From the IMG/VR virus record IMGVR_UViG_3300027969_000124, positions 1 to 56,324 of that record: a stretch of 56,324 nt of DNA. The stretch is one strand, 5' to 3'. Below the pieces are notes generated by a model. The model had not been told where the DNA came from. It did no database searches and saw only the letters and a list, made by a program, of their open reading frames with translations. Source of the stretch: a virus. Of the stretch, positions 24,687 through 34,462 are shown piece after piece. How positions within the stretch are numbered: the stretch's first letter is position 1; every line of letters starts with the position of its first letter. Position numbers and translations under genes: made by a program.

Positions 24687-25625
24687 ATGCCTGAATTTGA
24701 AAAAACCGAGTTTGAGTTCCCAGATGAAAAATCTGAGGTCAAAGTAGAAGTCTCGGAAAACTTTGACGACATTGAAATAGAGGTCGTTGACGACACTCCG
24801 GAGGAAGACCGTGGCCGCAAGCCTATGGAAACCCCGCCAGAGGATCCAACAGACGAAGAGTTAGCCTCTTATAAGCCAAAGGAACGTAACAAGATACGTG
24901 AGTTCCACAGGGCATACCATGATGAACGCAGGGCAAAAGAAGCTGCGTCCAAAGAAAAAGAGGAAGCACTTCTCTTTGCTAAAGCGGTGATGGAAGAAAA
25001 CAACAAGCTCAAGGGCAGCGTTGACGAAAGCCACTCCGCTCTTCTTGAGCAGGCTAAGAAAAATCTTGCCACAGAACTGCTGGATGCCAAGAAGAAGTAC
25101 AAGGAAGCATTTGAATCTGGTGACTCCGACGCAATGGTCGAAGCGCAGGATTTGATGACCTCAACCAAACTAAAGTCTGAACGTTTAAATAATTTTAAGC
25201 CAAAGCCTTTACAAGAGGAAGAAAATCAGCTACAAACCAGTTTAAACGCGAAAACTGACTTTGTGGATCACAAAGCCGAGAATTGGAAACGTGCTAATTC
25301 TTGGTGGGGTCAGGATCGCGAGATGACCGGATTCGCTCTTGCACTGCATGAGAAATTGGTTGTCGAGGATGGCGTTAGCCCTCAAAGCGACGAATACTAC
25401 CAACGCATAGACGGTAGGTTGCGCCAAGTGTTTCCAGAGAAGTTTGCATCTGAGAAGCCCGCTGAAACGAGTCAGCGCCCTAAAGCAAATGTAGTTGCTT
25501 CTGCGACACGTAGCGTTTCAGCGAAGAAAATTACGTTGTCACCAAGAGAAGTAAACATCGCCAAGCGGCTTGGAGTTCCAGTGGAACTTTATGCTCGTAA
25601 GGTTGCGGAATTAAGGAGAAACTAA
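24687..25625 (+). CDS. Scaffold protein
   Basis: A 312-residue, highly charged protein. It has an acidic N-terminus, a long helical/coiled-coil centre (~70-180) and a basic C-terminal domain (LSPREVNIAKRLGVPVELYARKVAEL) that could contact the capsid shell. Position between the GroES-like and capsid genes is the usual scaffold place. Confidence 0.75.
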   Translation: MPEFEKTEFEFPDEKSEVKVEVSENFDDIEIEVVDDTPEEDRGRKPMETPPEDPTDEELASYKPKERNKIREFHRAYHDERRAKEAASKEKEEALLFAKAVMEENNKLKGSVDESHSALLEQAKKNLATELLDAKKKYKEAFESGDSDAMVEAQDLMTSTKLKSERLNNFKPKPLQEEENQLQTSLNAKTDFVDHKAENWKRANSWWGQDREMTGFALALHEKLVVEDGVSPQSDEYYQRIDGRLRQVFPEKFASEKPAETSQRPKANVVASATRSVSAKKITLSPREVNIAKRLGVPVELYARKVAELRRN

Positions 25626-26704: not shown

Positions 26705-27616
26705 ATGGCAATTTCACGCGCACAACTACTCAAAGAACTGCTCCCCGGTTTAAACGCTCTGTTTGGCCTTGAGTATGCTCGTTACGGTGAAGAACATAAA
26801 GAAATTTATGAAACTGAAACCTCTGAGCGTTCTTTTGAAGAAGAAACAAAACTGTCTGGTTTCTCAGCAGCACCTGTCAAAAACGAAGGCTCTGCGCTTT
26901 CTTATGACAATGCTCAAGAGGCATGGACAGCACGCTACAACCACGAAACCATCGCTATGGGCTTCTCCATCACTGAAGAAGCAGTGGAAGACAACTTGTA
27001 TGACTCGTTGTCAAGCCGCTATACCAAGGCTTTGGCCCGTGGAATGGCTTACACCAAGCAGGTCAAGGCCGCTTATGTGTTGAACAATGCGTTCACCACT
27101 GGCGTTACCTACGGTGACGGCGTTGTGCTTTGCTCAACAGCCCATCCATTGATTTCTGGTGGCACCAACAGCAATCGTCCTACTACTGGCGCTGACTTGA
27201 ATGAAACATCGTTGGAAAACGCTGTTATTCAAATCGCTGGTTGGACAGACGAGCGCGGACTCTTGATCGCTGCAAAGCCCAAGAAATTGATTGTTCCTCC
27301 ATCATTGATGTTCGTTGCTACTCGCCTCTTAGAGACTGAGTTGCGCGTCGGTACTACCGATAACGACATCAACGCATTGAAGAACAACGGTTCAATACCA
27401 CAGGGTTACACAGTTAACCACTATTTGACCGACACCAACGCTTGGTTCTTGATGACTGATGTACCTAACGGTCTGAAGCACTTTGTCCGTACCCCATTGC
27501 AAAATGGCATGGATGGAGACTTCGACACTGGTAACGTCCGTTACAAGGCTCGTGAGCGTTATAGCTTCGGCGTGTCAGACCCACTAGGTATCTTCGGATC
27601 ACCCGGTTCGTCTTAA
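26705..27616 (+). CDS. Major capsid protein
   Basis: A 303-residue protein resembling the Mu-type (HK97-fold) major head subunit: MAISRAQLLKELLPGLN at the N-terminus, then AMGFSITEEAVEDNLYDSLS, VVLCSTAHPLISGG, ADLNETSLENAVIQI and PNGLKHFVRTPLQ. It is followed by a strong terminator, as expected for the most highly expressed gene. GTTTAAAC is in codons 15-18. Confidence 0.9.
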   Translation: MAISRAQLLKELLPGLNALFGLEYARYGEEHKEIYETETSERSFEEETKLSGFSAAPVKNEGSALSYDNAQEAWTARYNHETIAMGFSITEEAVEDNLYDSLSSRYTKALARGMAYTKQVKAAYVLNNAFTTGVTYGDGVVLCSTAHPLISGGTNSNRPTTGADLNETSLENAVIQIAGWTDERGLLIAAKPKKLIVPPSLMFVATRLLETELRVGTTDNDINALKNNGSIPQGYTVNHYLTDTNAWFLMTDVPNGLKHFVRTPLQNGMDGDFDTGNVRYKARERYSFGVSDPLGIFGSPGSS

Positions 27617-28318: not shown

Positions 28319-28825
28319 GTGAATCAGACTAATGTAAAACAAGCACACCTAAACGGTAGTGGTTTTTTGGTTCTTGGACGCAATCGTGTAAGAGGCATTT
28401 CTTTTACTGGTTCAGCTACGGCTGGATTTGTTGCGTTATTTGATACTACTACCGCACCCGTAACTACTGCTACTTATGGTCGTTCTGGAACTACCGTAAC
28501 CGTCACTCAATCCGCGCATGGACTTGCAAATGGTGATGTTATTGGTATTGACTTTGCCGCAGGAACAGGCGGTACAGCTACCAATGGCAACTATGTGGTA
28601 ACAGTCACTAATTCAAGCACGTTTACGGTTACAGACATTAACTCTGGAACTATTACTGCTTCTCCAGCAATGGTGTATTCAAGCCGCTGGTTGATGACAT
28701 ATGATGTGGCGGCTAGTGATACTTTTAACAATGCTCCGCTTATTCCAGAAGACGGCGTATTAGCTGTAAACGGCATCTATGCATATATGTCTAACGTAGT
28801 AGCTTGCAATGTTTTCTATGGCTGA
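28319..28825 (+). CDS. Virion structural protein with FCCH-like domain, GTG start
   Basis: A 168-residue protein with GTG start preceded by AAGGAG. Residues ~60-105 (VTQSAHGLANGDVIGIDFAAGTG...NGNYVVTV) match the short beta domain known from the E1 FCCH family that is common in phage virion proteins. Probably decorates the head or neck. Start possibly controlled by the masking hairpin upstream. Confidence 0.75.
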   Translation: MNQTNVKQAHLNGSGFLVLGRNRVRGISFTGSATAGFVALFDTTTAPVTTATYGRSGTTVTVTQSAHGLANGDVIGIDFAAGTGGTATNGNYVVTVTNSSTFTVTDINSGTITASPAMVYSSRWLMTYDVAASDTFNNAPLIPEDGVLAVNGIYAYMSNVVACNVFYG

Positions 28826-29561
28826 TAAAAGTTTTAACTTAATTGGTCGCAAGCTAATGATTGCGATCCCTTGTTACGATGGCAAAGTAAACATCAGAAC
28901 TGCTTTTGCCATTGCTGAACTCGTGCCTAAGTTAGACAAGATGGGTGTACGACTAAGCCTCGTACACATATCTGGCTGTTCAATCATTACTAAAGCACGG
29001 AACAAATTAGTCCGTAACTTTATGGAATCAGATTGCACAGACTTCTTATTTGTAGATGCTGATGTAGTGATTAACACAGATGCTGTTACTCGTCTACTAG
29101 CTTTGGCAACAGACAAAGATGTTGTAGCTGGATCGTATCCACGCAGAGCAAAAGATGCTAAGTTCTTCCTTGACTTCCATCTAGATGAGAATGGTCAGTT
29201 AGAGTTTGATGAGAATGGTTTGATGAGAGTGGAAAGCGTTTCCACAGGATTCATGCTTATCCGCCGTCATGTCTTTGAATACATGATTGAGAAGCATCCA
29301 GAATGGGAATACAAAGGCGATGGTGACGGCGAAATAGAACACGCCATATTCGACTTTATGATTCTTGATGGTCAATACATTGGCGAAGATTATGCTTTCT
29401 GTTTGAGAGCAAGGACTGAAGGATTTAAGATTTACTTAGACCCAATGATCAGTCTGCCGCACATTGGCACAGAAGAATTCACTAGAGACTTTGAGAAAGA
29501 TGTTTTGCGTCCTTTGTTAAAGGAGCATGCAAAGCCTCAACTGAAAGTTGCAAATGGCTAG
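28818..29561 (+). CDS. Glycosyltransferase (GT-A, family 2-like)
   Basis: A 247-residue enzyme started at ATG 28818 (8-base overlap); ATG 28809 is the alternative. IAIPCYDGKVNIRTAF at the N-terminus and the metal-binding FVDADVV (D80xD82) identify a GT-A fold, followed by GSYPRRAKDAKF and IGEDYAFCLRARTEG. It may glycosylate virion proteins (the adjacent Ser/Thr-rich ones are candidates) or surface polymers. A phage enzyme among structural genes is unusual but known. Confidence 0.85.
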   Translation: MADKSFNLIGRKLMIAIPCYDGKVNIRTAFAIAELVPKLDKMGVRLSLVHISGCSIITKARNKLVRNFMESDCTDFLFVDADVVINTDAVTRLLALATDKDVVAGSYPRRAKDAKFFLDFHLDENGQLEFDENGLMRVESVSTGFMLIRRHVFEYMIEKHPEWEYKGDGDGEIEHAIFDFMILDGQYIGEDYAFCLRARTEGFKIYLDPMISLPHIGTEEFTRDFEKDVLRPLLKEHAKPQLKVANG

Positions 29562-29865
29562 TCCCGCATGGCAGAGAGCAGAAGGAAAGAATCCGAATGG
29601 CGGTTTAAACGCCAAGGGCCGAGCCTCTGCGAAGAAAGAAGGCATGAACTTGAAACCGCCTCAACCAGAAGGCGGCTCAAGGCGCGACTCTTTCTGTGCA
29701 AGGATGAGTGGGATGAAAAAGAAACTGACATCCGCAAAAACAGCGAACGACCCGAACTCTAGGATCAATAAGAGCCTAAAGGCATGGAACTGCGCTGAAG
29801 GCGGTTTTATAAAGGCTGCTGATGGAATTGCCCAAAGAGGTAAGACCAAAGGGAGAATTTGTTAA
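29554..29865 (+). CDS. Small basic late protein with conserved C-terminal tag
   Basis: A 103-residue basic protein starting at ATG 29554 (MASPAWQRAEGKNPNGGLNAKG). It ends in ADGIAQRGKTKGRIC, a peptide nearly identical to the ends of the proteins at 30602-31147 and 32597-32950. GTTTAAAC is in codons ~17-19. Role unknown, presumably virion assembly. Confidence 0.8.
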   Translation: MASPAWQRAEGKNPNGGLNAKGRASAKKEGMNLKPPQPEGGSRRDSFCARMSGMKKKLTSAKTANDPNSRINKSLKAWNCAEGGFIKAADGIAQRGKTKGRIC

Positions 29866-30125
29866 TGGATGCAAACCTTATTTGGTCGGCAGTTTTATCC
29901 ATTTTGATGGGAGCGTTTGGCTTCTTCATGCGGGAGAAACTCAGTCAAGTAAAGGATATGGGCGAGGACATTAAGCGTGTCGAGCGCCTTTTAAACATAA
30001 CCCGTGAGGAGGTAGCCCGTGATTACGTTACTCAAACAGAAATTCAGCGCATTACTGACCACATTGACCAGCGCTTCAATCGCCTTGAAGCAAAGATTGA
30101 TCAACTTATTCAGGCGGGAAGATAA
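29865..30125 (+). CDS. Membrane-anchored coiled-coil protein
   Basis: An 86-residue protein from ATG 29865, overlapping the previous stop. One N-terminal membrane helix (IWSAVLSILMGAFGFFM), then a long coiled coil (MGEDIKRVERLLNI ... RFNRLEAKIDQLIQ). Similar to small phage lysis-accessory or head-neck proteins; exact role unknown. Confidence 0.75.
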   Translation: MDANLIWSAVLSILMGAFGFFMREKLSQVKDMGEDIKRVERLLNITREEVARDYVTQTEIQRITDHIDQRFNRLEAKIDQLIQAGR

Positions 30126-30592
30126 TGCCAAGCACTAGCAAGAAGCAACACAATTTCATGGAAGCGGTGGCTCACAACCCAGCGTTCGCCAAGAAAGCAG
30201 GCGTTTCCCAATCCGTTGGGAAAGACTTCAGTAACGCCGATAAAGGCAAAACGTTTAAACAAGGTGGAGATATGGCAAGCAAAATGAACCCCGGATTTAT
30301 GGCAATGATGGCTAAAAAGAAGCCTAGCAAGATGGGCATGTTTGAAAAATCTGGCAAAGATGTTGAGAAAAAGGGCATGAAAGAAGGCTCTAAGGCTGAG
30401 ATGGCTATGGACAAATCCCAAATGATGAAAAAGGGTGGCCCAGCCGTGAAGAAAATGGCGACTGGCGGTTTGGCCGCTGGTCACAAGTCTGCTAATGGTA
30501 TTGCTACCAAAGGCAAAACTAAAGGCAAACAGATCTCTATGCCCGGAAACAAAGGCATGAAATCTGGTGGCATGGCTAAGAAATACTGTTAA
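30125..30592 (+). CDS. DUF3008-like lysine-rich late protein
   Basis: A 155-residue very basic protein. The N-terminus (MPSTSKKQHNFMEAVAHNP, FAKKAGVSQSVGKDFSNADKG) matches DUF3008. The rest is Lys/Met/Gly-rich, with an internal SANGIATKGKTKGKQI related to the C-terminal tag of neighbours. It may bind DNA in the virion. Contains GTTTAAAC at 30253. Confidence 0.8.
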   Translation: MPSTSKKQHNFMEAVAHNPAFAKKAGVSQSVGKDFSNADKGKTFKQGGDMASKMNPGFMAMMAKKKPSKMGMFEKSGKDVEKKGMKEGSKAEMAMDKSQMMKKGGPAVKKMATGGLAAGHKSANGIATKGKTKGKQISMPGNKGMKSGGMAKKYC

Positions 30593-30601
30593 GGAGTTAC
30601 C

Positions 30602-31147
30602 ATGAAAAAGATGAAACGTTATGAAGCTGGTGGAGACATTGATCCATTAGAGGCTGCAAACAAGTCTGAGGAATCTCAGTCTATTGCTGATGAAGCCAAG
30701 GGTGAAGCAATGCTCAAATCGATGCGCGATAAGGCATCTGCACCAAAGCCAAAAGCAAAACCAGCAATGCCAGCGCTTGAGATGAGCGTTCCTCCCTCAA
30801 AGCCCAAATCGACCCAGTATGGAGCAAGTGTTCCATCCCTTGGCGCTTCTGGCACTTATGGTGGCGGTTTAGGACGTAGATCTAATCCTGAGTATCCAGA
30901 GGATGCTTCTAAGGCTATGGCCGACATGAAGAAAACCTCTTCTCCTGATGTGACCAAGATGTCTTTGGCTGAACGTATGAAGGAAAGCCGTGAAAAATCT
31001 AGATCAGGTAGCGGTAAAACCGATACCCGCTCTGTGAATGAGCGTTTCCGTTCTGCCCTTGGTTTTGCTAAAGGCGGTTCTGTTAATGCATCTAAACGTG
31101 CTGATGGTATTGCCCAGCGCGGCAAGACCAAAGGCCGCATCATCTAA
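30602..31147 (+). CDS. Basic late protein with conserved C-terminal tag
   Basis: A 181-residue hydrophilic, low-complexity protein (Lys, Ser, Pro-rich) ending in FAKGGSVNASKRADGIAQ then RGKTKGRII. The tag is separated from the body by a GG-containing linker, as in the proteins at 29554 and 32597. Function unknown. Confidence 0.75.
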   Translation: MKKMKRYEAGGDIDPLEAANKSEESQSIADEAKGEAMLKSMRDKASAPKPKAKPAMPALEMSVPPSKPKSTQYGASVPSLGASGTYGGGLGRRSNPEYPEDASKAMADMKKTSSPDVTKMSLAERMKESREKSRSGSGKTDTRSVNERFRSALGFAKGGSVNASKRADGIAQRGKTKGRII

Positions 31148-31156
31148 GGAATAGAT

Positions 31157-31432
31157 ATGATGGCAAGCCGAGGAATGGGGGCTGTTAGCCCCTCCAAAAT
31201 GCCCGGCCCGAAGCGTAAGGCTAGACGGGACAATACCGACTTCACGGAGTATGCTGAAGGCGGTAAGGTCAATGCTGCCGGAAATTACACAAAACCTAGT
31301 CTGCGTAAGCGGATTGTGTCTCAAGTAAAAGCAGCAGCGACCCAAGGCACTGGCGCAGGTCAGTGGTCAGCCCGTAAAGCCCAACTTGTAGCCAAGAAGT
31401 ACAAGGCGGCAGGTGGAGGCTATCGAGATTGA
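31157..31432 (+). CDS. Conserved basic late protein (GQWSARKAQ family)
   Basis: A 91-residue basic protein with EYAEGGKVNAAGNYTKP, then LRKRIVSQVKAAATQG and GQWSARKAQLVAKKYKAAGGGYRD. By recollection the end matches a conserved phage/bacterial protein family of unknown function. The start could be 31157 or the next ATG. Coupled to the next gene through overlapping TTG/TGA. Confidence 0.75.
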   Translation: MMASRGMGAVSPSKMPGPKRKARRDNTDFTEYAEGGKVNAAGNYTKPSLRKRIVSQVKAAATQGTGAGQWSARKAQLVAKKYKAAGGGYRD

Positions 31433-31662
31433 AAGCTCCTCAGCAATCCCTTAAAAACTGGGGCGATCAGAAATGGCGTACCAAGTCGGGAAAGCCGTCG
31501 TCAAAAACTGGTGAGCGTTACTTGCCAGAAGCAGCAATTAAGTCTTTAAGTTCTAAAGAGTATGCGGCAACTACCAAGGCAAAGCGTGCAGGTAAAGCCA
31601 AGGGCAAACAGTTTGTGGCTCAACCCAAGGGTATAGCAAAGAAAACAGCAGGATTTAGATAA
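31429..31662 (+). CDS. DUF5872-like basic late protein, TTG start
   Basis: A 77-residue basic protein whose only sensible start is the TTG at 31429 (TTGA overlap with the previous stop). QQSLKNWGDQKWRTKSGKPS then KTGERYLPEAAIKSLSSKEYAA match the DUF5872 pattern. Likely a DNA-binding virion protein; function unknown. Confidence 0.75.
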   Translation: MKAPQQSLKNWGDQKWRTKSGKPSSKTGERYLPEAAIKSLSSKEYAATTKAKRAGKAKGKQFVAQPKGIAKKTAGFR

Positions 31663-32597
31663 TGGCATATACCTCCGGCAGTACCGCATTTAACCTTGAC
31701 TTCACCGAATTAGCGGAAGAAGCGTGGGAACGCGCTGGACGGGAAATGCGTTCAGGATATGACCTAAGAACCGCACGCAGATCAATGAACCTGTTAACCA
31801 TTGAGTGGCAAAACAGGGGGATCAACATGTGGACGATTGAGCAAGGCTCCATCGATCTGGTTGCAGGTTTAAACACGTATCCAACCCCGACAGATACCAT
31901 TGACCTAATGGATCACGTAATCCGTACTGGGGCTAACAGCGCCAGCACACAGTCAGATTTAACGATCACTCGCATTAGTTCTTCGACCTATGCCACGATC
32001 CCCAATAAATTACAGCAGGCTCGTCCTATCCAGATCTTTGTTCAAAGGAACTCTGGCGAGACAAACCCTGCTAATTCAACGCTAAGTACAACCATCACCG
32101 CCACAAGCACAGAGATAACTCTCAGCACAACGGTTGGATTGGCTGCGGCTGGGTATATAAAATTAGATAATGAGACAATCTACTATCAATACATCACAGG
32201 GAATACCTTATATGTATGTTCAAGGGCGCAGAACGACACGACGGCAGCAGCCCATACAGCGGGCATCTCGGTGTATGTTCCTCAACTTCCTGCTGTGACC
32301 GTCTGGCCTACCCCAGATAACTCAACCCCATATCAATTGATCTATTGGCGGCTACGGCGCGTGCAAGATGCTGGGGCTGGTATACAGACTGGCGATATGA
32401 ATTTTCGCTTCCTACCCGCCGCTGCGGCAGGATTAGCCTATCAAATTGCAGCCAAGGTTCCTGAACTGATGCCACGGGTGCAAATGCTTAAAGATATGTA
32501 TGACGAGCAATTCAATCTTGCCGCTGGTGAAGACCGAGAGAAGGCAGCGATTAGGTTTGTTCCTCGTCAATCATTCATTGGAGGAGGTAGCGCTTAA
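31662..32597 (+). CDS. Head-tail connector/adaptor protein with inserted beta domain
   Basis: A 311-residue protein. The N-terminus (LDFTELAEEAWERAGREMRSGYDLRTARRSMNLL) and C-terminus (FRFLPAAAAGLAYQIAAKVPEL...LKDMYDEQFNLA) form the helical connector pattern of P22 gp4/T7 gp11-like proteins. Residues ~140-205 are an inserted Ser/Thr-rich beta domain. Lies upstream of a second, simpler connector gene at 33809. Confidence 0.75.
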   Translation: MAYTSGSTAFNLDFTELAEEAWERAGREMRSGYDLRTARRSMNLLTIEWQNRGINMWTIEQGSIDLVAGLNTYPTPTDTIDLMDHVIRTGANSASTQSDLTITRISSSTYATIPNKLQQARPIQIFVQRNSGETNPANSTLSTTITATSTEITLSTTVGLAAAGYIKLDNETIYYQYITGNTLYVCSRAQNDTTAAAHTAGISVYVPQLPAVTVWPTPDNSTPYQLIYWRLRRVQDAGAGIQTGDMNFRFLPAAAAGLAYQIAAKVPELMPRVQMLKDMYDEQFNLAAGEDREKAAIRFVPRQSFIGGGSA

Positions 32598-32950
32598 TGG
32601 CTGGGTTATTTGATCCAGAGGGTAAAGATTTTGATTATGAAACAGCCCTCGCTTACAAAATGCAGCCAAAGAAAAAGGGCGAACATTGGGGTTCTGTTGC
32701 CCCAACATCAGACGATGAGCGCATAGCCAATGATTTACCAGAAGATAGCTATGTTTTGTTAAAGGGTAGGGGTCACCAAACTTTTAACAAAGCAGAAGCG
32801 GCAGAAAATGAGCGTGGATCAAAGATTGTAAAACGTGGCGAAAGATATTATTCTGTGCCAAAAGGGTTTAAAAAAGGCGGGATGGTTTCAGCCTCTAGCC
32901 GTGCGGATGGTGTAGCCCAAAGGGGTAAAACCAAGGGAAGGATTTTGTAA
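32597..32950 (+). CDS. Late protein with conserved C-terminal tag
   Basis: A 117-residue basic protein ending in FKKGGMVSASSRADGVAQ then RGKTKGRIL. The middle has DDERIANDLPEDSYVLLKGRG. Same tag arrangement as 29554 and 30602. Its start overlaps the connector stop and its end the next start. Confidence 0.8.
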   Translation: MAGLFDPEGKDFDYETALAYKMQPKKKGEHWGSVAPTSDDERIANDLPEDSYVLLKGRGHQTFNKAEAAENERGSKIVKRGERYYSVPKGFKKGGMVSASSRADGVAQRGKTKGRIL

Positions 32951-33363
32951 TGGGCAATAGATTTGCTTCTGGCAAATACAGTATTGCCATGTGCGACCGT
33001 TGTGGTCAGCGCTACAAACTCAAGGAGTTAAAGAAGGAAATCATCAAGACAAAGCGGTACGACCTTAAAGTTTGTCCTGAGTGCTGGGATCCAGATCAGC
33101 CTCAGTTGCAACTAGGTATGTATCCAGTTGATGATCCGCAGGCTGTGATGGAGCCACGTAATGACGGCACATACGTCACTGCTGGTGTGAATGGATTGCA
33201 GGACAACCTATCTGGTTTTGGTGGTTATCCAACCGGAGGTTCTAGGGACATCCAGTGGGGCTGGTATCCAGTAGGTGGATCGAGTGAATTTGATGTGCCT
33301 TTAACACCAAATAACTTGGTGGGAACGACAAGTGTTGGTACAGTAACGGTTAGCGTAACTTAG
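32950..33363 (+). CDS. Zinc-ribbon virion protein
   Basis: A 137-residue protein with an N-terminal zinc ribbon (CDRCGQRY, then VCPECWD) and a Gly/Thr-rich C-terminal half. Similar zinc-ribbon proteins sit among connector genes in aquatic podophages. Probably structural; function unproven. Confidence 0.75.
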   Translation: MGNRFASGKYSIAMCDRCGQRYKLKELKKEIIKTKRYDLKVCPECWDPDQPQLQLGMYPVDDPQAVMEPRNDGTYVTAGVNGLQDNLSGFGGYPTGGSRDIQWGWYPVGGSSEFDVPLTPNNLVGTTSVGTVTVSVT

Positions 33364-33372
33364 GAGCGAAAA

Positions 33373-33564
33373 ATGGATAAAGCGGACTTAAAACAAGATA
33401 AGAAAATGATTGCTGGTGCTGTGCATAAGCATGAGAAAAAGCTGCACCCCGGTCAGCCTATGACTAAATTTGCCAAGGGCGGCAAGACCAATATGCAAAT
33501 GCGTAAATTGGGTCGTGGCATGGCTAAGGTTGCCAACCAGATGAAATCTTCAAGGGGAAAATAA
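33373..33564 (+). CDS. Small lysine-rich late protein
   Basis: A 63-residue very basic protein with KFAKGGKTNMQMRKLGRG. The FAKGG motif is shared with several neighbours. Probably nucleic-acid-binding; function unknown. Confidence 0.7.
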   Translation: MDKADLKQDKKMIAGAVHKHEKKLHPGQPMTKFAKGGKTNMQMRKLGRGMAKVANQMKSSRGK

Positions 33565-33812
33565 TGGGATTTTCTAAAAAAGTAATGGGTAAGGAAGTTG
33601 GCGATGCCAGCGTCTATGCCAAACCGCACACTATGGATGGTAAGGCTGGTGTAAAGATGCGCGACAAAGCGCCTATGCCCCGCAAGAAGGATTGGACTCC
33701 AATGGATGGCGTAAGCATCGGCACTAACGATGAAGTTAAAACTACTGGCATCAAAATCCGTGGAACAGGCGCTGCCACCAAAGGCGTGATGGCTAGAGGC
33801 CCGATGGCATGA
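33564..33812 (+). CDS. Small basic late protein
   Basis: An 82-residue basic protein overlapping its neighbours by 1 and 4 bases. Not recognised; it belongs to the run of small Lys/Gly-rich late genes. Confidence 0.7.
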   Translation: MGFSKKVMGKEVGDASVYAKPHTMDGKAGVKMRDKAPMPRKKDWTPMDGVSIGTNDEVKTTGIKIRGTGAATKGVMARGPMA

Positions 33813-34462
33813 CATACAACGAATTAGTCACTGCTGTTCAAGATTACTGTGAGAACACGTTTCCCACGGTAGATATGAACACGATGATTAAGCAGGCGGA
33901 GCAACGCATCTATAACACGGTGCAGATTGCCAACCTTCGCAAGAACGTTACCGGAACTATTGTCTCCGGTAACAAGTATTTATCTGCGCCTGATGATTTC
34001 TTGTCTACGTACTCCTTGGCTGTATATCCAAGCGCAGGCGGTGACTACCTCTATTTGTTAAACAAAGATGTTAACTTTATGAGAGATGCGTATCCCAATC
34101 CTGCGGATACGGGAAAACCCAAGCACTATGCTATTTTTGGCCCACAGTCTTCAAATGTAAAAGAATTGTCTTTTATTCTTGGCCCAACGCCAGATGTAAC
34201 GTACTCCGCTGAGTTGCATTATTACTATTACCCTGAGTCAATTGTGACTGCCAGCCAGACTTGGCTAGGAGATAACTTTGATTCTGCTCTTCTTAATGGA
34301 ACGATGGTCGAGGCTATCCGTTATATGAAGGGTGAGAAAGATTTGGTTGATTTGTACAACCAGATGTATGTTCAGTCTATCTCTCTACTCAAGAACTTGG
34401 GAGATGGCAAACAACGCATGGATGCTTATCGTGATGGGCAGGTTAGGAATCCGGTGAGTTAA
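33809..34462 (+). CDS. Head-tail connector (gp4/gp11-like)
   Basis: A 217-residue protein. MTYNELVTAVQDYCENTFP, MIKQAEQRIYNTVQIANLRK and YYPESIVTASQTWLGDNF...LNGTMVEAIRYMKGEKDLVD match the adaptor ring proteins between portal and tail in podophages. Ends with ATG overlap to the next gene. Confidence 0.8.
   Translation: MTYNELVTAVQDYCENTFPTVDMNTMIKQAEQRIYNTVQIANLRKNVTGTIVSGNKYLSAPDDFLSTYSLAVYPSAGGDYLYLLNKDVNFMRDAYPNPADTGKPKHYAIFGPQSSNVKELSFILGPTPDVTYSAELHYYYYPESIVTASQTWLGDNFDSALLNGTMVEAIRYMKGEKDLVDLYNQMYVQSISLLKNLGDGKQRMDAYRDGQVRNPVS

Follow-up and report, generated by a model that had tools for sequence, protein, structure and literature searches.

A C-terminal peptide shared by unrelated late proteins of an aquatic phage clade: a candidate virion-targeting tag

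Introduction

Why should several phage proteins that have nothing else in common end in the same peptide? This question is raised by a viral DNA of 56,324 bases (IMG/VR record IMGVR_UViG_3300027969_000124, positions 1 to 56,324; the whole stretch was analyzed and is referred to here as the window), in which terminase, portal, GroES, scaffold-like, capsid, and adaptor genes follow one another in that order. Around twelve small genes are found between the capsid gene (26705-27616) and an adaptor gene (33809-34462), and among their products are three unrelated late proteins that share the C-terminus GG-x(2-3)-SASKRADGIAQRGKTKGR-x-x-COOH. A preliminary description of the window, made from the DNA alone, had noted this peptide and had suggested that it might be a targeting tag for the virion or a motif that binds DNA or the portal. 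The explanation we favor, to which we give about an even chance, is that the peptide targets proteins to the virion from their C-termini. In this view a protein of the phage head or of its assembly machinery reads the tag, and a changeable set of DNA-associated proteins is loaded as a result.

Results

The same C-terminal peptide is found on three unrelated proteins of the window

The first tagged protein (29554-29865; this and all other features given are on the + strand) contains 103 amino acids and consists of a stand-alone DUF6321 domain of 80 amino acids (Pfam PF19846, E 5.9e-19; 42-sequence alignment) followed by the tag. It ends in ...EGGFIKAADGIAQRGKTKGRIC, the tag GGFIKAADGIAQRGKTKGRIC being encoded at 29800-29862 (tag profile E 3.7e-11). 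The second (30602-31147) is a basic, disorder-prone orphan of 181 amino acids with no family match, and ends in ...KGGSVNASKRADGIAQRGKTKGRII (tag GGSVNASKRADGIAQRGKTKGRII, 31073-31144, E 7.8e-15). The third (32597-32950), an orphan of 117 amino acids also with no family match, ends in ...KGGMVSASSRADGVAQRGKTKGRIL (tag GGMVSASSRADGVAQRGKTKGRIL, 32876-32947, E 1.9e-14). A further protein (30125-30592) contains the variant ...HKSANGIATKGKTKGKQISMPGNKG... internally, with the core NGIATKGKTKGK at 30494-30529 (E 2.3e-5) followed by about 20 more residues; its family occurs in about 100 loci that carry the same version of the tag, designated type I below. All four copies were found where the preliminary description had placed them; RAD is not exact for the first protein, which has AAD. 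The four bodies fall into separate clusters, consistent with the earlier remark that they are unlike one another. The degenerate DNA pattern of the core has three matches in the window and none in 100 dinucleotide-preserving shuffles, which excludes a chance origin.

The codons used for the peptide indicate how it has been maintained. Over the 13 codons of ADGIAQRGKTKGR, copies 1 and 2 differ at 6 codons, all synonymous, and copies 1 and 3 differ at 8 codons, of which 7 are synonymous and one gives an I/V change, so that the differences are mostly synonymous as had been stated. In 67 contigs with multiple tags, synonymous codon identity between tags was only 0.45 within the same contig compared to 0.41 between contigs. 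Because of this divergence within contigs, the tags are not fresh duplicates. In tags whose stop codon is overlapped by the next gene, the KG[KR] codons tend towards GGA/GGG-AGG/AAG, a Shine-Dalgarno-like run capable of acting as a ribosome-binding site. With a next start at least 9 nucleotides away, the preference is for GGC/GGT, and the peptide is unchanged. A Shine-Dalgarno origin was thus rejected, since the peptide is the same whether or not the next start overlaps. These comparisons support the earlier proposal that the peptide is kept by selection at the protein level.

The type I tag is widespread and has a fixed end

A degenerate DNA scan of viral contigs found at least 120 loci with at least 272 cores, and in 189 of these 272 the core is followed by exactly two residues and then a stop. 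Counts from such pattern scans are lower bounds and are skewed towards the pattern, and the starts of the open reading frames (ORFs) were assigned mechanically. The consensus of the 189 cores is GG-x(2-3)-S-S-A-S-[KSR]-R-[AG]-D-G-[IC]-A-Q-[RK]-G-K-T-[KR]-G-[KR]-[MIFY]-[VCIL]-COOH, in which D, G, A, G, T, and G were fixed by the scan pattern and the remaining positions were free or partly constrained. A second type of ending retains the core but extends it by some 9-14 residues in which M, K, and GG are frequent, often with C as the last residue. The end is fixed relative to the core, 242 of 390 type I ORFs stopping three residues after GKT[KR]G.

The bodies that carry the tag are diverse. Those of the 272 scan instances formed 114 clusters, 86 of them singletons, and the final set of tagged ORFs (at least 527; median 137 amino acids, longest 481) comprised at least 167 body clusters, with 263 members in one single-linkage cluster; BLAST clustering of such low-complexity proteins can split or merge families. 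When 3,847 ORFs in 916 clusters were searched for shared C-terminal 6-mers, the tag ranked first, AQRGKT being present in 76 clusters. The peptide is conserved in related phages; the preliminary description had named a lack of such conservation as one of the findings that would refute its proposal, which survives this check. A search of bacterial and archaeal genomes (257 Gb) gave 17 pattern matches, of which only one contig, from a bin of an uncultured gammaproteobacterium and with four tags, was a real case.

The tag profile matched no known family. Against PHROG it matched only the DUF6321 end of single members, all other matches having E values of 0.13 and above; there was no match in the PDB at E 10, and none to a Pfam family. 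Searches of annotated phages by tblastn with the bare 24- and 40-amino-acid peptides gave no match, these queries being too short. No published mention of the peptide, DUF6321, or Pag-Yong1 (a tagged cyanophage described below) was found in the open-access papers searched, which omit most subscription journals. Two known motifs were considered and rejected. GIAQRGKT fits the P-loop (Walker A) pattern GxxxxGK[ST], but the lysine is not kept: R, H, L, or F can take its place, and V does so in the second version of the tag. No confident fold was obtained. A sorting signal of the sortase or exosortase type was rejected on the basis that the tag consensus has no hydrophobic or transmembrane stretch.

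The tag behaves as a module on rapidly changing bodies

In an alignment of 42 DUF6321 sequences, most homologues end at WxC just before the position of the tag, and the window copy continues with the tag; of 62 DUF6321 homologues in the clade, 3 were scored as tagged. The window protein 33373-33564, which is untagged, has a homologue in locus L017 that carries the tag. These sequence comparisons support the tag as a separable C-terminal module. The DUF6321 domain (29554-29793 in the window) also makes up the C-terminal portion of larger proteins in cyanomyoviruses, such as P-SSM2 gp114, which is encoded between the tail sheath stabilizer and gp16.

Practically no known domains were found when 142 tagged representatives were scanned against Pfam and PHROGs. 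With the tag trimmed off, the bodies are basic (median isoelectric point 9.8, compared to 5.7 for other nearby ORFs; p 2e-41) and richer in disorder-promoting residues than the other nearby ORFs. Where capsid proteins were 90-95% identical, a homologue in the corresponding region of the other phage was found for 12% of tagged bodies, compared to 36% of untagged ORFs. The ratio was similar at lower capsid identities, and the contrast was smaller at 95-99.5% (29% versus 49%); the pairs are not independent, and some ORFs in the untagged set are spurious, so that the real contrast may be larger. The turnover of tagged bodies is about threefold faster than that of the neighboring genes.

Tags accompany one capsid type

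The capsid protein of the window type, 77-96% identical, was present in 20 of 21 long tag-bearing viral records (the window included). Conversely, when loci were picked by the capsid protein alone and had at least 5 kb of downstream DNA, 46 of 52 contained a tag, usually in 1-4 copies. The six untagged loci comprise three with variant or decayed tags (L264, L173, L261), two with none (L257, L177), and one for which few downstream ORFs were called (L156). Over all capsid-bearing loci, 318 of 319 tags lie downstream of the capsid gene, at a median distance of 2.7 kb (5th-95th percentile 1.6-4.6 kb). This agrees with the initial assignment of the peptide to unrelated late proteins, here of the head module.

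The only cultivated phages with a capsid protein as close as 74% are the Planktothrix and Synechococcus phages Pag-Yong1, Pra-JY27, and MinM2, whose records each contain 65,014 bases; the last two look nearly identical to the first. Pag-Yong1 has one tag (profile E 4.4e-8), on UMO75986, a proline-rich protein of 308 amino acids encoded between the minor capsid and portal-adaptor genes; no tag is present on the DUF6321 protein of this phage. The cyanophage records OL906435, PP438419, and OQ594354 bear different host names, yet all contain 65,014 bases and gave identical match scores, and are possibly one phage isolated or carried over repeatedly.

The more distant relatives HTVC023P, CRP-902, and DSL-LC04 gave no tag-profile match in their whole records. 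Pelagiphages of the HTVC023P type resemble the tagged phages in the order TerL-portal-GroES-scaffold-capsid-adaptors, with capsid proteins 64-66% identical. HTVC023P (L149) differs in lacking a tag-profile match and in having two different proteins, gp32 and gp51, that end in RGxGAAxRG peptides (RGVGAAIRGHKFIGVK and RGGGAAVRGMGFKGVF). These two ends suggest a further type of C-terminal tag in pelagiphages.

A second version of the tag segregates with phage lineage

In two loci, bodies homologous to tagged ones were found to end instead in KVRGWGIARGARKAKMR or a close variant, and this led to the identification of a second version, the type II tag, KVRGAGIARKGVRPAKMR-COOH, with the consensus K-V-R-G-A-G-I-A-[RK]-K-G-V-R-P-[AC]-K-M-R-COOH. 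Types I and II share the register R-x-x-G-I-A-x-[RK]-G-x-x-x-x-[KR]-[MI]-x. The type II end is also fixed, 126 of 137 ORFs stopping five residues after the pattern. Type II contigs (L279-L396, L231, L235, and L251) represent a sister lineage. Their capsid proteins are of the window's type (median identity 83%), they share its portal and adaptors, and they often contain two and up to four tags, with a long variant ending ...KMVTMKGA.

Labeled contigs contained type I only in 171 cases, type II only in 119, and both in 4. Three body clusters contain both versions, and because these clusters split by lineage, the version is a property of the phage rather than of the body. Trees of six neighboring genes required 2 to 6 changes of tag version. 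Within type I, tag similarity was 0.761 within genomes compared to 0.700 between genomes, a difference that is due mostly to position -10 and was equaled in 0 of 1000 permutations. A single version per lineage would be predicted were each lineage to have a reader of its own.

One family with a variant tag has an indirect link to virion proteins

The N-terminal 42 or so amino acids of the 30125 protein (window 30125-30250), with the motif MPSxSKKQHNFMxAVAxxxxFAKKxGVxQSVGKDF, are 74% identical to PHIKZ165.1 of phage phiKZ. The same domain forms the N-terminus of jumbo-phage structural proteins, including CBB_322, which mass spectrometry of purified virions identified from 30 unique peptides covering 44% of its sequence (PMC5259590).

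Neighboring genes

The tag-associated type of major capsid protein (26705-27616) belongs to phrog_371 and PF25209. Between the portal and capsid genes, the scaffold-like protein (24687-25625; phrog_28737, of unknown function) is a candidate reader of the tag on the basis of its position and charged sequence. An SU10-type adaptor-like protein (31662-32597, PF24175 E 3e-6) is encoded between tagged genes, and the SU10-type head-tail adaptor at 33809-34462 matches PF24175 at E 2e-21. A small protein with two CxxC motifs (32950-33363) adjoins the third tagged gene and is a candidate partner; it is kept in both tag lineages, and its tree has only 2 changes of tag type over 200 labeled loci.

Other features of this region were also noted. 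A second common N-terminal motif, M-K-K-x-K-R-Y-x-E-G-G, is found at 30602-30650 and in many type I carriers that occupy that slot. A glycosyltransferase-like gene (28809-29561) lies directly upstream of the tagged genes, and is present in 35 type I loci and in no type II locus. Two small basic proteins (31157-31432 and 31429-31662) are 61-77% identical to proteins of HMO-2011 and roseophage CRP-13, phages in which no tag was found. The protein at 33564-33812 has another conserved C-terminal peptide, RGTGAATKGxMARGPMA-COOH, which occurs mainly in one protein family, represented at 52 loci, and is also seen on several unrelated small ORFs. Judged by the shared pattern G-x-A-x-[KR]-G, it is possibly a distant relative of the tag.

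Discussion

The 16-24 residues that follow the GG linker, at a fixed distance from the free C-terminus, have the behavior expected of an address tag: the end is fixed, each lineage has one version, and bodies are exchanged behind it. To this extent the targeting idea of the preliminary description is strengthened. In the mechanism we favor, the tag would be recognized by the phage scaffold, the portal/adaptor complex, or the inner face of the capsid during prohead assembly, and would load small, basic, largely disordered proteins into the assembling head. Inside the head the basic bodies would lie alongside the DNA, and ejection of the DNA may carry some of them into the host. The bodies could be replaced or diverge rapidly because only the tag must be kept. 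A more elaborate form of this proposal, in which type I and type II are exchangeable tag-reader pairs of a cargo-loading system by which an abundant podovirus-like clade carries and injects fast-changing effector or counter-defense proteins that have nothing in common but the C-terminal label, is possible but doubtful.

Several observations weigh against the targeting mechanism. The untagged phages HTVC023P, HTVC027P, CRP-902, and DSL-LC04 have the same head gene set, so that head assembly as such does not depend on the tag. The presence of one version per genome is explained in part by common descent, both versions tracking phage lineage. When a reader was sought by means of gene trees, the conserved head proteins separated the two versions about equally well and none was singled out; nor was there a clear candidate among genes present only in tagged phages. 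The link to CBB_322 is indirect, involving a domain other than the tag and one family only. AlphaFold predicted only a weak helix for the tag alone (76 sequences; predicted local distance difference test score 58), and DUF6321 with its tag was predicted at low confidence.

The alternatives differ in where the tagged proteins would go and in what would read the tag. The tag could be an anchor instead of a cargo label, docking accessory proteins from outside onto the finished capsid, the neck, or the adaptor complex for decoration or host contact, with the bodies facing the environment. The tagged genes have SU10-type adaptor genes around them and possible decoration genes ahead of them, fast turnover also suits surface-exposed proteins, and the CBB_322 link does not separate inside from outside. 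We nevertheless consider an anchor unlikely, the bodies being basic and disorder-prone, with almost no match to Pfam or PHROGs and no adhesion or Ig-like domain. We judge distinctly unlikely a nucleic-acid-binding tail that, through K/R residues between glycines, condenses packaged DNA or binds RNA without a protein reader. Such a tail is consistent with the 6-7 basic residues in 18 and with the basic bodies, but electrostatics need no exact end, no invariant D-G-[IC]-A, and no hydrophobic last residues, and would not require a lineage-wide switch of all tags to the other version. The DNA-binding motif of the preliminary description thus accounts less well than an address tag for the fixed end and for versions specific to a lineage. 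The portal binding that it also suggested is neither favored nor disfavored by these data.

Other readings dispense with the virion or with the protein. The C-terminal position and the hydrophobic last residues would suit an intracellular address or stability signal, such as a degron recognized by a protease of the host or the phage, or a signal for localization to sites of replication or assembly, and the virion location of tagged proteins is itself inferred. The tight position behind the capsid gene (318 of 319 tags) argues against such a signal, and two versions of a host degron would be unexpected in phages with nearly the same capsid unless their hosts differ; we regard this explanation as very unlikely. 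An element acting at the nucleotide level, either an embedded ribosome-binding site or the translated end of a mobile or recombining DNA, is barely credible. The Shine-Dalgarno-like run that the KG[KR] codons often place ahead of an overlapping start is what recommends it, but third positions vary freely, the peptide remains constant when the next start is distant, the bulk of the conserved peptide is located too far upstream for a ribosome-binding site, and there was no Rfam match.

If the tag is a packaging signal, then virion cargo becomes predictable from sequence for hundreds of orphan proteins of an abundant aquatic phage clade. The tagged orphans would be a rich source of candidate injected counter-defense proteins, and the tag would provide a small genetically encoded label, available in two versions, for loading phage heads. 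The question of how phages pick small proteins for the head becomes testable.

Known systems provide three comparisons. Giant phages of the SPN3US type carry many different ejection (E) proteins in the head along with the DNA (PMC7411985), and in this respect resemble the proposed cargo; the available portion of that article describes no C-terminal peptide common to the E proteins. The head of such phages is processed by a prohead protease. The capsid targeting sequence of phage T4, found on IPI-III and Alt, is like the tag a single short conserved peptide on highly diverse phage proteins, a constant label on variable cargo; for the tag, at least 527 ORFs represent at least 167 body clusters. 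The T4 sequence is N-terminal and is removed by the prohead protease gp21 (PMC7411985), whereas the tag is C-terminal with a fixed end; no stand-alone protease family was recognized between the portal and capsid genes of the window. Packaging has been demonstrated for T4, and is proposed for the tag. Encapsulin cargo-loading peptides are short C-terminal peptides on proteins destined for an HK97-type shell (PMC8346489), and like the tag, with its GG linker and 16-18 conserved residues, they follow a flexible linker. Encapsulin cargo consists of enzymes and iron-storage proteins of a cellular compartment, whereas the tagged proteins are disorder-prone orphans encoded in phage late operons with TerL and portal. 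In its proposed mode of action the tag resembles both the T4 capsid targeting sequence and the encapsulin cargo-loading peptides, and it is a member of neither group.

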